A DNA stretch of 64,000 nucleotides, taken from positions 3,492,684 to 3,556,683 of the forward strand of contig NZ_JH600070.1 of NCBI RefSeq assembly GCF_000245015.1, given 5' to 3'. The notes under the pieces are model-generated. The model had not been told where the DNA came from and ran no database searches. It saw nothing but the letters and a program-made list of their open reading frames with translations. Source of the stretch: Beggiatoa alba B18LD (lineage in GTDB: Bacteria; Pseudomonadota; Gammaproteobacteria; Beggiatoales; Beggiatoaceae). Within the stretch, counting starts at the first letter, position 1. Every line of letters begins with the position of its first letter. The position numbers were made by a program, and so were the translations under genes. Positions 5,514-63,221 of the stretch are shown piece after piece.

Positions 5514-5557
5514 AAAAAAAGACCTGCTAAGTTTTACAAACCTAGCAGGTCTTTTTC
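5514..5557 (-). terminator. Palindromic repeat (AGACCTGC type) acting as rne terminator
   Basis: AGACCTGCTAAG and CCTAGCAGGTCT form a 33-bp near-perfect palindrome flanked by A7 on the left and T5 on the right, so it can end transcription in both directions. It lies 15 bases past the end of rne. The same palindrome recurs at 49370, 52613 and 59938. Confidence 0.8.
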
Positions 5558-11814: not shown

Positions 11815-12768
11815 ATGACAGTGATTATTGGGCATAATCCCAATTTTGTGCCGTTTAACGGACGGGGAACATTACGCCATAACGAACCGCTTTCTAAACA
11901 TACCTCATGGCGCATTGGTGGTCCCGCAGAATGGTTTTATGAACCAACGGATTTAGAAGACCTTGCGCAACTGATTCCGCAAATTCCTGACAATATGCCC
12001 ATGATGTGGATGGGGTTAGGCAGTAATTTACTGGTTCGTGATGGGGGCGTGCGGGGGATGGTTATCCTAACAGCGGGCTTGTTGGATGACATGATTTTTT
12101 TAGATGAATATACCTTGCGTGTAGAAGCGGGAGTCAGTTGTGCCAAAGTTGCCCGTTTTGCGGTTAATGCAGGATTAACAGGGGCTGAGTTTTTAGCGGG
12201 TATTCCTGGCACGATGGGCGGGGCATTAGCCATGAATGCGGGCGCGTGGGGTAGTGAAACATGGGCAATTGTGCAAGGTGTCGAAACCATGAATCGACAG
12301 GGTCAACATCAACGCCGTTCTGTCACTGATTATGAAGTGCGTTATCGTCATGTCAAAGGGCCCGACAATGAATGGTTTGTTGCCGCTGTTTTAAAATTAT
12401 TGCCATCAACGATTGAAGAAGGGCAGGAAAAAATCAAAGCCTTACTCCGTCAACGTGGGGAAAGTCAACCGATGGGGTTGCCAAGCTGTGGCTCTGTATT
12501 TCGCAATCCTGCGAATGATTATGCAGCGCGTTTAATTGAAAAAGCAGGCTGGAAAGGGCGTGGCGTTGGTGGGGCTTATGTGTCAGAAAAACACGCTAAT
12601 TTTATTATTAATCAAAAAGCAGCAACTGCGGCAGATGTTGAGGCATTGATTGAACAAATTATTCTTTCGGTGGAACAGCAAAGCGGTGTGCGTTTAATTC
12701 CTGAAGTGCGTATTGTTGGAGAATATGCCACGACTAAGCCTTTTATGAGTGAAACACCCTCATCATAG
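11815..12768 (+). CDS. murB: UDP-N-acetylenolpyruvoylglucosamine reductase
   Basis: 317 aa. This FAD enzyme reduces UDP-GlcNAc-enolpyruvate to UDP-MurNAc with NADPH. The FAD-binding motifs MGLGSNLLVRDGGVRGMVI and GIPGTMGGALAMNAGAWG are clear. The catalytic Ser lies in LPSCGSVFRNP and the catalytic Glu in LIPEVRIVGE. The GKGRGVGGAYVSEKHANFIIN-like segment is the short form typical of type II MurB, as in many mur-cluster copies, unlike the longer E. coli type I enzyme. Confidence 0.97.
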   Translation: MTVIIGHNPNFVPFNGRGTLRHNEPLSKHTSWRIGGPAEWFYEPTDLEDLAQLIPQIPDNMPMMWMGLGSNLLVRDGGVRGMVILTAGLLDDMIFLDEYTLRVEAGVSCAKVARFAVNAGLTGAEFLAGIPGTMGGALAMNAGAWGSETWAIVQGVETMNRQGQHQRRSVTDYEVRYRHVKGPDNEWFVAAVLKLLPSTIEEGQEKIKALLRQRGESQPMGLPSCGSVFRNPANDYAARLIEKAGWKGRGVGGAYVSEKHANFIINQKAATAADVEALIEQIILSVEQQSGVRLIPEVRIVGEYATTKPFMSETPSS

Positions 12769-49127: not shown

Positions 49128-49437
49128 ACCTGAGTTCAGCGAGTTTCTTTTAAAAAGACAACAGCTTGTCTGAATCAGGATTCTCAGGATTTTCAGGATT
49201 AGTAGGATTAAAAAGCGTGATTCACCTGACCTTTTGGTTTGAGGGTTTTAAATCCTGCTAATCCTGAAAATCCTGATTCAGACAATGTTTTAATCTTGTC
49301 TGGTGAATCCCGATGAAAAACAAGAGAATAATTTCTGCCAGTCCTTCAACCCTTTTCGCGTGTTCCGATAGACCTGCTAGGTTTTGAAAACCTAGCAGGT
49401 CTCTGTTTTATTTTATAAAATTTGCTTAACTCAGGTT
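49128..49437. repeat. Composite mobile repeat with ACCTGAGTT ends
   Basis: Left end ACCTGAGTTCAGCGAG and right end, read inward, ACCTGAGTTAAGC. Inside are a 116-bp hairpin (49168-49283: GTCTGAATCAGGATT against its inverted copy) and an AGACCTGC-type palindrome (49370-49402). The segment after the left end (TTTCTTTTAAAAAGACAACAG) also occurs in the MITE at 23774. Confidence 0.75.
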
Positions 49438-52612: not shown

Positions 52613-52808
52613 AGACCTGCTAGGTTTTCAAAACCTAACAGGTCTTTTTTTGTCTGAATCAGAATTCACAGAATTTTCAGAATTAGCAGAATTAAAAAAC
52701 GTGATTCGTATTAATTTCTTGGTTTAAGGGGTTTAAATTCTGTTAATTCTGAAAATCCTGATTCAGATAAACTATTGTCTTTTTAACAAAAACTCGCCGA
52801 ACTCAAGT
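52613..52808. repeat. Composite repeat: AGACCTGC palindrome plus CTGATTCAG hairpin
   Basis: An AGACCTGC-type palindrome with T6 (52613-52651) serves as terminator for the Pat gene. A long hairpin with GTCTGAATCAGAATT at one end and ATCCTGATTCAGAT at the other (52652-52770) follows. The right end TCGCCGAACTCAAGT (52794-52808) overlaps the last codons of the metallophosphoesterase gene and supplies its TGA. Confidence 0.8.
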
Positions 52809-57953: not shown

Positions 57954-58084
57954 TTGTGAACCCCTTGCAAAAGCCTATTTTTAGATAAATGAGTTATAAA
58001 TCAAAATTTTTCTGAATGACTGGTATAAATATTGCTCACCCTTATTTTAACATTTTGCACGCTATTCCGATGAGGAAAATATTT

Positions 58085-58939
58085 ATGTGGAAAACCCTAT
58101 TTTCCTATATAACACTGCTGATTATGCTGATAGGTAATCAAATACTATTCGCGGCAGAAACAGGGTTGCAACATGGGTATGAATGCGCTCGCTGTGATTT
58201 GCAAGGAAAAGACTTTCAAAAGGTCAACTTAAGCCATGCGAATTTACAAGAAACCCTGTTAATGAGCAGTAACTTACATCAAGCAAATTTGAGCTATGCC
58301 AATTTGCAACGGGCAGACTTGCGGGGTGCAGATTTAAGCCTTGCAATCCTCCATTCAGCCAATTTACAAAAAGCGGATTTACGACGGGTTGAATTAAGTC
58401 AAGCTCAACTACAATCTGCACAATTAATGCAGGTCGATTTAAGCGATGCGGAATTAAGTACCGCTATTTTAACCAAAGCCAATTTACATCAAGCGGATTT
58501 AAAAAACGCTCAATTAGAAAGTGTTCAAGCGAAACAAGCCTTATTCACCGATGCAGATTTACGCAATGCCTTATTAACTAACGCAGATTTACGGGGCGCG
58601 AATTTTTCACGTGCGAAGATGAGCGAGGTTAATTTAGAAAATACCCAATTAAGTTGGGCAATTTTGCAACAAGCCGATTTACGGGGGGCATTTTTAACCG
58701 AAGCGGATTTAAGACGCGCCAATTTACGGGAGGCGGATTTGCAAGGCGCAGATTTACAAAAAGCCGATTTACGTGAGGCGGATTTAACCAATACCAACTT
58801 ACGCAAAGCCAACTTACAAGGTGCGTTATTTAGCAGTGAAAGTGATTTACAAAAAGCCCGTTTACAAGGTGCAAACTTACAAGGCGCGTGTTTTGCGGTG
58901 ACTGTCGCCGAAAATCCCCAATGGAGCTGTATCCGCTAA
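58085..58939 (+). CDS. Exported pentapeptide-repeat protein
   Basis: 284 aa from ATG 58085, with GAGGA 8 bases upstream; this start gives a signal peptide (MWKTLFSYITLLIMLIGNQILFA), while an ATG 23 codons earlier would bury it. The mature part has about 45 A(D/N)LXX repeats (ADLRGADLSLAILHSANLQ), forming a right-handed quadrilateral beta-helix. CARCDL near the start may be a Cys pair. Most pentapeptide proteins are cytoplasmic; export here is notable. Target unknown. Confidence 0.88.
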   Translation: MWKTLFSYITLLIMLIGNQILFAAETGLQHGYECARCDLQGKDFQKVNLSHANLQETLLMSSNLHQANLSYANLQRADLRGADLSLAILHSANLQKADLRRVELSQAQLQSAQLMQVDLSDAELSTAILTKANLHQADLKNAQLESVQAKQALFTDADLRNALLTNADLRGANFSRAKMSEVNLENTQLSWAILQQADLRGAFLTEADLRRANLREADLQGADLQKADLREADLTNTNLRKANLQGALFSSESDLQKARLQGANLQGACFAVTVAENPQWSCIR

Positions 58940-59894: not shown

Positions 59895-59937
59895 TTCAAC
59901 GTTTGGGATGATTTTGAATATTCTGATTCAGACAAAA

Positions 59938-59970
59938 AGACCTGCTAGGTTTTAAAAACCTAGCAGGTCT
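59938..59970 (+). repeat. AGACCTGC-type palindrome after the HD gene
   Basis: AGACCTGCTAGG...CCTAGCAGGTCT, perfect 33-bp palindrome followed by CGATTTTTTT, likely a terminator. A CTGATTCAGAC fragment of the other repeat family lies just before it (59922-59932). Confidence 0.8.
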
Positions 59971-60020
59971 CGATTTTTTTAGTCTCAGCAAATTCAGGTT
60001 ATTTTGATTTTTCTAAACAT

Positions 60021-60115
60021 TATAGTAACCGTACTATAAAACGACACGAAGGACTGGCAGTCCTTTGAGGACTGCCAGTCCTAAATTTGAATCACTTTAT
60101 GGTACGTTTACTATA
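60021..60115. repeat. TATAGTAACCGTA-type palindromic repeat (full form, inverted)
   Basis: 95 bp, reverse orientation of the copy at 49458. Both AGGACTGGCAGTCCT palindromes and the ~20-bp inverted ends are present. It ends three bases before the serpin stop codon at 60118. Confidence 0.85.
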
Positions 60116-60117
60116 TC

Positions 60118-61584
60118 TTAGGTTGAAACAGACAGTGCAGGATTCAACACGCGCCCCATTAATAGAATTGAGCCTGAGAAATTCTCGACAATGACAAATA
60201 TAAAAGGATGGTCTGCACGAAATACTTCATTTTCTTGTACATCTATTTGTATGGGGGCAGTGCTCACGGCGGTCGCAACACTGGCATCCATTCCCATTTC
60301 ATTTACCGCAGTAAATGTTTTGTGTAAAAAAGTTTGAATCACTAAATCTTGTGTGCCATCAATGCCTGAAAAATCCGCAATATCTTGTTGAAAAGCGTCT
60401 TTAATCCCTAAGGTTGTTAATGCCTCAAATAAATTGAATTCTGCATTTAAAGCAAAACTCGGCAAATAAATATCCATGACTTTTGCCTGACTTTCGTTCA
60501 ATAATCCTAACCATTGTTGTAATAACTCAGGCGTTAATTTCTCTTCTAATTCAATAATCCCATCGACTTGATTAGGTAATAACACCATCATAGACATGGG
60601 TGGTACATCATGTTTTTTAGGAAAGCGATAATCTAAACAAAGAATTTGTAAGCCATTTCTAACTAAATGAAATACCCGCGTTCCCAATTTTTCCATCATT
60701 AAGACTTCAACTTCTTCATGTTCTGAGACATAAAACGTTGCAGGTCTTGTATTTTCAAAATAGCTATACCAATCAGCTTTAAAATAAATTGCGTTTGTAA
60801 TAATCAGACGTGTTTGTTCTGTTAATAAATCAGGGGTTACAATTTGCGGGATTTTTCCCTGTGTTTTTTCTGAACACCATGCATTAATGACATAAGCAAT
60901 TTTTTCATCGCTCATATCAATAAACTCAATGACTGCATCATATTGATTAGTCACTGCTTCAAATTGTGCCAGTAATAATGAAGCCTTGACCCATAATGCA
61001 TTAGCTGTTTGAATCTTAATAAATTTATTATGATTTAACCGTTCTAATGCTTCCATCACTTGCAACATTTCGTTTGTAATTTCATCCACCGTCTCTGCTT
61101 GCAATGCCTGAATCAATTGCATTTGCGTTGTCCCACGTGCGCCAAGGGCAAGCACGGTTAACATCGTTGCAATACTGAATGGCGAAAATAGTAAATTATT
61201 CTCTGTATGCAAGGCTTTATATAAGTTGACGGCAAAACGATTAACTTTAAGGCAGGGAGGTTGCGGGGGAGTATTAACAGTTGTTTCAGGGAGCGTGTTG
61301 AGAATGTCTGTCGGTTCTTCACCGTTGACAGGTTCGTCTTCGGTCTCACTTTTGATGCTTATCTGGTCTAAAACAATGGCATTGCCATATGAGGGAGGGA
61401 TTGGTTTATTCTGCTGTTGAAAGGCAAGGATATTGTCATACAACATCTGACTTAATTGATTACGACAATCATCTAAATTCTCTGATTGTACAATAATCTC
61501 CTGCCATTCAAGGATTTTACCGATAAACCCTGTCTCCGTTTTGATATAAAGCGCGTTATAACTTGTTAGTTTCATGTCGTTCAT
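60118..61584 (-). CDS. Serpin with a HicB-like N-terminal domain
   Basis: 488 aa, no signal peptide. Residues ~6-62 (YNALYIKTETGFIGKILEWQ, NLDDCRNQLSQMLYDNI) resemble the HicB antitoxin-like partial RNase H fold. An acidic/Pro linker (~70-110) follows, then a full serpin (~112-486): NRFAVNLYKAL, NLLFSPFSIATMLTVLALGARG, NALWVKASLLL, ITNAIYFKADW, DIYLPSFALNAEF, and C-terminal FRADHPFIFVIVENFSGSILLMGRVLNP. The reactive-loop hinge reads EMGMDASVATAVSTAPI, with the small residues needed for loop insertion, so it may be inhibitory. The target protease is unknown; an aminopeptidase gene is next to it. Confidence 0.88.
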   Translation of the reverse strand: MNDMKLTSYNALYIKTETGFIGKILEWQEIIVQSENLDDCRNQLSQMLYDNILAFQQQNKPIPPSYGNAIVLDQISIKSETEDEPVNGEEPTDILNTLPETTVNTPPQPPCLKVNRFAVNLYKALHTENNLLFSPFSIATMLTVLALGARGTTQMQLIQALQAETVDEITNEMLQVMEALERLNHNKFIKIQTANALWVKASLLLAQFEAVTNQYDAVIEFIDMSDEKIAYVINAWCSEKTQGKIPQIVTPDLLTEQTRLIITNAIYFKADWYSYFENTRPATFYVSEHEEVEVLMMEKLGTRVFHLVRNGLQILCLDYRFPKKHDVPPMSMMVLLPNQVDGIIELEEKLTPELLQQWLGLLNESQAKVMDIYLPSFALNAEFNLFEALTTLGIKDAFQQDIADFSGIDGTQDLVIQTFLHKTFTAVNEMGMDASVATAVSTAPIQIDVQENEVFRADHPFIFVIVENFSGSILLMGRVLNPALSVST

Positions 61585-61730
61585 GGTCGTTATCTAGTCA
61601 GTACTGCTTACACAAAACGTGATTGCTGAAAGTCAGCATGAAATATAATGAAAATCAACGCACAAAATACTACTAAACAGAAAGATAGCCAATAGGAAAC
61701 TGACATCTACGCAGAAAATCTATTTTACTT

Positions 61731-63221
61731 TTACAGGGTTAATTGCGTTAAAACCTGCTGTTTTAATAATAAATATATACTATAGCGTACACCAAACCCT
61801 GTTATTGCCGTTGGAATATGGGCTAATCCGTTTTCATGGTATTGACTGGCTAAATCAATATGTACCCACGCAATCTCAGGATTAACAAAACGGCTTAAAA
61901 AACGAGTCGCATAAATATGGTCTGCCTCATTATCCTCATTATTTTCAGGGCACTGCTTGATATCTGCAATATCACTATGTAATCGTTCATCATAATCCTC
62001 ATCCCACGGGAACGCACACATCCGCTCACCTGATATCTGTCCCGCTGCGATTAAGCTAGGTAGTAAATGTGCACGATTACAAAATAAACCACTATAACGA
62101 GTCCCTAACGCAAGCAGGCAACCATAAGTTAATGTCGCATAATCAATAATTAAATCAGGTTTTTCCTCACAAGCAAGGACTAAAGTATCCGCTAAGAGCA
62201 AACGCCCTTCTGCATCGGTATCCGTGATTTCAATTGTCACCCCATTACTTGCTTGAATCACATCATTGGATTTATACGCAAACGCACTAATATGGTTTTC
62301 TGCCAATGCAAGCCAGCAATCAACAGCAAAATCAACTTTTAATTGGCTCAACGCTAACAATGTACCTAACGCAACTGCACTGCCTTGCATGTCTAAATGC
62401 ATATTTGCCATGGCAGGACGTGTTTTTAAATGCAAGCCACCTGTATCAAAGCAAATGCCTTTCCCCACTAACGCCACTTTCTGACGATAAGTAGCAGGAC
62501 GATAACGCAGGCATAAAATACCCGCATCATTTGCCTCGCTTGCTTGCGTCACGGCGAGAAACGCGCCCGCATGTTTAACCCGTAGCGCGTTTAAATCGTA
62601 AAATTTCACATCCCATTGATGCTCTTCTGCAAGTCGCTCCACCCGTTGCCGATACAATAAAGGTGTGAGCTTATTCGCAGGTAAAGCCGATAAATAACGT
62701 GCTAACTGATTACCCCGTGCCTCTGCATAGGTTTGTGCAAATTGGTCATCCACCGCAACGCCATAGACTTCAATTTGCAAAAAAGTCTGCCCATTGCTTT
62801 TCGACTGACTTTTAAAACAAGGCATTTCTGCCGCTGCTGCCAATAACGCAGCAACAATATTTTCTGCTAACTGCGCCGCAAATACGTCTGTAAAGCCTGC
62901 AATGCAAACCCCAATGACTTGCGGATGATAAATAACATGAGGCTTAACTAATTGGCGTGCGAGGGTTAAATTTTGAAAACTGCTATTTTTTTCCTGCGAA
63001 AATCCCAATGTGACCAAACTCGCGCTTAAATTCGGTAATTCAATCGTTAAAGGACTTTCCTGCTGTTGATGACGACGCAAATATCGCTGTTTAAATACGT
63101 CCGTATAAGGAAAAACAGGCCATGCTGTCTGCAACACATGTGCGGGTAAAACCATGACCCAATGGCTTAATGAATCGATATCTGATTGTGTTGGCAGACG
63201 CGCATAACTATTAATCTTCAT
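61731..63221 (-). CDS. M17 leucyl aminopeptidase-family protein
   Basis: 496 aa. VALVGKGICFDTGGLHLKTR, MHLDMQGSAVALG and ITDTDAEGRLLLADTLVLA keep the dimetal Lys/Asp/Glu ligands and the catalytic Arg; the canonical NTDAEGR and KPxxxMxxMKxDMGG positions are altered (T for N, KTRPAMANMHLDM). SALPANKLTP is the shorter-branch motif. It removes N-terminal residues in the cytoplasm. It overlaps PspC by four bases (ATGA), so it is coupled to pspBC. Confidence 0.88.
   Translation of the reverse strand: MKINSYARLPTQSDIDSLSHWVMVLPAHVLQTAWPVFPYTDVFKQRYLRRHQQQESPLTIELPNLSASLVTLGFSQEKNSSFQNLTLARQLVKPHVIYHPQVIGVCIAGFTDVFAAQLAENIVAALLAAAAEMPCFKSQSKSNGQTFLQIEVYGVAVDDQFAQTYAEARGNQLARYLSALPANKLTPLLYRQRVERLAEEHQWDVKFYDLNALRVKHAGAFLAVTQASEANDAGILCLRYRPATYRQKVALVGKGICFDTGGLHLKTRPAMANMHLDMQGSAVALGTLLALSQLKVDFAVDCWLALAENHISAFAYKSNDVIQASNGVTIEITDTDAEGRLLLADTLVLACEEKPDLIIDYATLTYGCLLALGTRYSGLFCNRAHLLPSLIAAGQISGERMCAFPWDEDYDERLHSDIADIKQCPENNEDNEADHIYATRFLSRFVNPEIAWVHIDLASQYHENGLAHIPTAITGFGVRYSIYLLLKQQVLTQLTL

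Follow-up and report, generated by a model that had tools for sequence, protein, structure and literature searches.

A HicB-type domain fused to a serpin that lacks an export signal in Beggiatoa alba B18LD

Why would a domain of the HicB antitoxin family stand in front of a serpin? This question is raised by a single gene of Beggiatoa alba B18LD, at 60118..61584 on the (-) strand of the window, the 64,000-nucleotide stretch of DNA that was analysed. The gene runs from an ATG at 61584 to a stop at 60118-60120 and encodes 488 amino acids with zero internal stops, within an open frame of 491 codons that leaves at most three codons upstream of the ATG. On the same strand, residues 1-80 (61345..61584) correspond to a whole short HicB fold (b-b-b-a-b, class-2-like, with no DNA-binding domain), as indicated by relatives, model and codon usage; residues 81-113 (61246..61344) form an acidic linker rich in proline and threonine, and residues 114-482 (60139..61245) a complete serpin domain. 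The Pfam serpin profile PF00079 matches with an E-value of 9e-89 and a score of 299 bits (cut-off 27), over positions 3-370 of 370. PADLOC and NCBIfam searches gave no match. This architecture of HicB, linker and serpin is almost certainly genuine. That the fusion has been seen once might point to two genes joined by a sequencing or assembly error, but the chance of such an artefact is practically negligible: a 4.24-Mb contig surrounds the locus in a 4.27-Mb genome scored 100% complete, one frame passes from HicB through the linker into the serpin with no stop, and the serpin half has no in-frame export signal of its own.

Judged by eye, the N-terminus of the fusion has no signal peptide, lipobox or hydrophobic stretch and consists of HicB instead. 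Every other serpin of this bacterial family that was read with an intact 5' end opens with a signal peptide or a lipobox, likewise by eye. With hicB in the place of the export signal, the product would be made and kept in the cytoplasm, a location that we consider very probable. The initial annotation had described an acidic linker, a complete serpin and a missing signal peptide, and these three points are upheld. The fusion is the sole serpin of its genome; the query was matched in 27 of the 43 family genomes, and serpins were found in 11 of 350 genomes of a class sample. One further candidate for a cytoplasmic family serpin, L029, was rejected because it is truncated at the 5' end where its contig stops (G032:C132 ends at 12542). 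Within this family, serpin genes seem to be multiplying: one genome has two same-strand serpin genes about 2 kb apart (G013:C201:59455-63693) and a third on another contig. Serpins may also have been lost repeatedly, since the relative L067 (G038:C183:7321-8305) is a broken serpin gene in several frames with one stop, and another serpin is split in two pieces (G028, C103:7755-8784).

What, then, is the N-terminal domain? Residues 11-63 match the Pfam family UPF0150-like (PF21748) with E-values of 4e-4 for the full chain and 5e-5 when the N-terminus is searched alone, a match below the curated cut-off; the same profile is matched by all nine members of our alignment A1. Stand-alone HicB genes share 33-43% identity with the fusion N-terminus across its whole length, and the best matches in the same bacterial family are stand-alone genes of 72-80 amino acids whose similarity extends through the final strand. 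For the three family HicBs whose neighbours were read, the adjoining genes encode HicA (Pfam). Furthermore, a scan in which each species was represented by one genome yielded 280 confirmed candidates, the best 80 of which are all free HicBs in ORFs of 61-137 amino acids, spread over cyanobacteria, where this subfamily is common, and many other bacterial phyla. None of the 80 has a serpin attached, and hicA lies directly downstream in 64, within 60 nt in 63; being taken from the best 80 of 280, these counts describe the nearest kin of the fusion's HicB and not all HicBs. An AlphaFold2 model based on 33 sequences (mean pLDDT 79.4, pTM 0.67) predicts the order strand-strand-strand-helix-strand, and its Foldseek matches in the PDB are led by the HicB structures 6u0i, 6hpb, 4p78, 4p7d, 6g26 and 5yrz. 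A profile sequence search of the PDB also retrieves HicB, weakly (E 0.008). Both marks of the HicB family, kinship in sequence and a partial RNase H fold of b-b-b-a-b order, are thus found in the N-terminus, the latter as a predicted structure. Structure prediction and a profile search of this region had been called for in the initial annotation, and the predicted HicB fold and the sub-threshold match to the UPF0150-like profile agree with its HicB assignment; the length of about 55 residues given there is too short, the domain covering about 80.

Does this domain still serve as an antitoxin? In the 80 free HicBs, 25 positions are invariant at 95% or more; of these, the HicB half of the fusion retains 13 (A11, Y13, K15, G19, G22, E26, W27, E29, C40, R41, L44, A54 and P63) and has lost 12 (T10N, Y20F, M21I, Q23K, T32V, E33Q, G34S, D46Q, A47M, E50D, M51N and Y55F), although the invariance of positions 19-27 and 36-45 is partly built in, as these belong to the scan's own patterns. 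T32-G34, D46, A47, E50, M51 and Y55 fall outside those patterns, and the free HicBs themselves keep a median of 100% of the near-invariant positions, the lowest 79%. The motifs TEG, DA and EM have become VQS, QM and DN, respectively. The spacing of D46, A47, E50 and M51 would place them along a single stripe of the helix, and HicB has HicA-interacting helices (PMC11594946); loss of the HicA-binding face is a reasonable inference from these substitutions. In the HicB of Streptococcus pneumoniae, Phe22 and Glu47 were reported to be essential for HicA binding (PMC11594946), but that chain is absent from our sequence matches and the two residues thus have no mapped counterpart.

The genomic partners tell a similar story. 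There is no hicA near the fusion gene and no hicA remnant was detected in the linker between its halves. The three hicA genes of the genome are each adjoined by their own hicB of another sequence type, and a hicA of the cognate (NHSIYTN) type was not found in the genome. That the HicB half still docks, binding a HicA-like toxin or RNA and bringing the inhibitor there, is very unlikely. Such docking would draw on the intact fold, the 13 retained positions and the presence of three HicA genes, but these HicAs have cognate HicBs and differ from the NHSIYTN-type partner of the subfamily; the fusion has lost TEG, D46-A47 and E50-M51, which vary very little among free relatives; and DNA binding is most likely not a property of HicB domains themselves (PMC2701414). 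With roughly half of the invariant positions gone and no hicA found beside the fusion when its genomic partners were looked for, as had been proposed, the earlier suggestion of a tether to a toxin-like partner is left unsupported. The tether to RNA that was suggested beside it is unsupported as well. To judge by its sequence, the HicB half no longer serves as an antitoxin. Elsewhere, the genome G239, outside the family, carries two adjacent hicA/hicB pairs that differ in sequence type (L043, 965-1909), and the same-genus genome G005 has a hicA in two pieces in different frames with a hicB-like match remaining adjacent (G005:C1:2546966-2547377).

How did the two halves come together, and does their union matter? 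The codon usage of the HicB half ranks among the lowest 2.9% when compared with 80-codon pieces of the other ORFs of the window, whereas that of the serpin half is typical, which points to two origins and agrees with the joining of a hicB gene to a serpin gene already present. In a tree of a 10-row set, the fusion serpin falls together with nine serpins of the family, most of them lipoprotein-like (support 96/90; 92/90, not starred, after removal of the two longest other branches). Its best identity to same-family serpins is about 40%. Its end branch measures 2.1-2.3 against a median of 0.4, a length that makes its position in the tree less sure. Since 48 of 54 near-invariant family positions of the serpin core are kept despite the long branch, with mostly conservative changes, the serpin fold looks still constrained. 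A second HicB-serpin, for which the initial annotation had proposed a search, was not found in roughly 800 genomes (43 of the family and order, 369 of the class with the N-terminus as query and 398 of the phylum, samples that overlap somewhat), plasmids and phages. Viral and genome contigs scanned with the full-length protein likewise gave no relative; these scans use exact 8-residue patterns, so only close kin come within their reach. The same-genus genome G005 yielded no serpin.

Being known from one genome, the fusion may be a passing accident. On this account it has little effect, with HicB as a passenger and the serpin working, or not, as before; we regard it as rather unlikely. The absence of the fusion from other family genomes, the serpin-less relative of the same genus and the relaxed HicB positions are all in keeping with it. 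However, the HicB positions that are kept are those compatible with the fold while others have changed, the strong divergence of both halves speaks against a very recent event, and loss of export would by itself alter function.

The reactive-centre loop bears most directly on what the serpin does. The hinge and loop occupy residues 429-453 (60226..60300, (-) strand), with P17-P1 EMGMDASVATAVSTAPI followed by QIDVQENEV; by alignment, P1 is probably Ile445. The hinge of the fusion reads EMGMDASVATAV against E.GTEAAAATA in the family. The motif of inhibitory serpins at P17-P9 is ExGTEAAAA (PMC8233489), and the fusion has EMGMDASVA, which agrees with the consensus at P17, P15, P12 and P9. All 26 family serpins scored have Thr, Ser or Asn at P14 and Ala at P10, compared with Met and Val in the fusion. 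Most family serpins carry Arg or Lys at or beside P1, where the fusion has Ile in a loop with no basic residue. The inhibitory-type hinge described in the initial annotation is therefore only partly borne out: P17, P15, P12 and P9 are kept, and P14 and P10 have left the consensus, two changes that may turn the loop into a substrate and not an inhibitor. The serpin may or may not still inhibit proteases.

One answer is that it does not. The loop would have drifted after the fusion, and the protein would now be a substrate of proteases, act in a chaperone-like or storage role, or persist as a leftover in slow decay, a reading that we take to be possible though less than likely. The hinge departs from ExGTEAAAA at P16, P14, P13, P11 and P10, the Met and Val occur in no scored family serpin, the basic P1 is lost, and the protein is an orphan of one genome on a very long branch. 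Nevertheless, P15 Gly, P12 Ala, P9 Ala and P8 Thr are kept, P12-P8 contain no proline or charge, the loop is of near-normal length, the core is conserved and the frame is intact over 488 codons.

Our preferred reading, held tentatively and at somewhat under an even chance as a whole, is that an exported serpin was moved into the cytoplasm and that HicB was exapted as a head for its stabilisation or assembly. The ancestor would have been a serpin of this bacterial family that was exported, probably as a lipoprotein, and a complete hicB gene would have been joined to it in this lineage, replacing the export signal. As the HicB fold is kept but antitoxin-specific positions are lost, the head is predicted to be folded, no longer to neutralise HicA, and most likely to stabilise or assemble the metastable serpin. 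The serpin would most likely still work by loop insertion; with no basic P1, its specificity would be new and non-tryptic, and its target may be a serine protease met in the cytoplasm. Counting against this reading are the occurrence of the fusion in one genome only, the Met at P14 and Val at P10, and the long branch of the serpin. The two subtilisin-type proteases of the genome were considered as targets and set aside, since the serpin-less G005 has two as well.

Known proteins offer partial parallels. In YpHicB3, HicB N-domains mediate dimer-of-dimers contacts (PMC11594946). Tengpin from Thermoanaerobacter has a stabilising N-terminal segment on the native serpin, a precedent for the preferred reading (PMC8233489), and likewise carries an addition, possibly stabilising, before a bacterial serpin (PMC8233489, PMC6718151); its extension is described as a tail, whereas that of the fusion is a folded domain from another family. 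The modular cellulosomal serpins of Clostridium thermocellum (PinA) also bear extra modules but are part of the cellulosome, outside the cell, and have no HicB (PMC6718151). In the DNA-accelerated chloropin of Chlorobium (PMC10090351), something beyond the loop sets the activity of a bacterial serpin, as may hold for the fusion; its cofactor site lies on the serpin body with no added domain. Among same-family serpins (Beggiatoa-like, for example loci L003-L031), the clade and core positions are shared, but these have a signal peptide or lipobox, a hinge of GTEAAAATA or close to it, mostly Arg or Lys at or beside P1, and no HicB. Short hicBA modules, in which HicB lacks a DNA-binding domain (class 2, PMC10865869), match residues 1-80 over the whole HicB including the C-terminal strand; the fusion differs in having no hicA, in the joining of HicB to an unrelated domain and in the loss of near-invariant positions. 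Described HicB fusions are to HicA or DNA-binding domains (PMC10865869). Modular or N-terminally extended bacterial serpins and such HicB fusions are thus already known, and the union of HicB with a serpin is new within the literature and data searched: no paper on a HicB-serpin protein was found in open-licence literature, where the two papers naming both HicB and serpin concern, by title and abstract, other subjects, in line with the initial annotation, to which the combination was unfamiliar.

A different function for the head can also be imagined, in which the fusion is a regulated cytoplasmic protease trap whose HicB head recognises a specific partner (another of its kind, a protein resembling HicA, or a factor from an invader) and through it sets the time or place at which the serpin springs. 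This is quite unlikely; if true, a component of toxin-antitoxin systems would have been built into a device that inhibits proteases. If functional, the fusion would clearly exemplify the reuse of an antitoxin fold beyond toxin-antitoxin biology, as well as the transfer of a bacterial serpin from the cell envelope to the cytoplasm, making the question of bacterial serpin targets testable in one protein.

Could the neighbouring genes indicate a role? The M17 leucyl aminopeptidase gene (61731..63221, (-) strand; PF00883, E 2e-93), which is context and not part of the system, is separated from the start of the fusion by a gap of 146 bp (61585..61730). The initial annotation had taken the aminopeptidase and pspBC as a hint of protease control during membrane stress, a hint that proves weak. 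M17 enzymes are metallo-aminopeptidases, which are not known as serpin targets. In addition, G005 has an M17 ortholog (76% identical) and keeps pspB-pspC-M17 in a genome with no serpin, the synteny stopping just past M17, so that no conserved neighbourhood links the fusion to protease control or membrane stress. There is one weak sigma-70-like match at 61751-61722, and promoter-like matches in the region are no more frequent than chance. Between the fusion and the convergent gene lies a palindrome at 59937..59971, terminator-like on both strands. It is a copy of a dispersed repeat, GACCTGCTAGGTTTT-N-AAAACCTAGCAGGTC, present in perfect or near-perfect form at 5521-5551, 49371-49401, 52614-52644 and 59939-59969, that is, four copies in 64 kb against 0 expected. 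A second inverted repeat, of the AGGACTGCCAGTCCT type and possibly dispersed too, lies just 3' of the fusion gene at 60049-60085. Near the fusion gene, 58016-58939 encodes a pentapeptide-repeat protein with an export-like N-terminal hydrophobic stretch.
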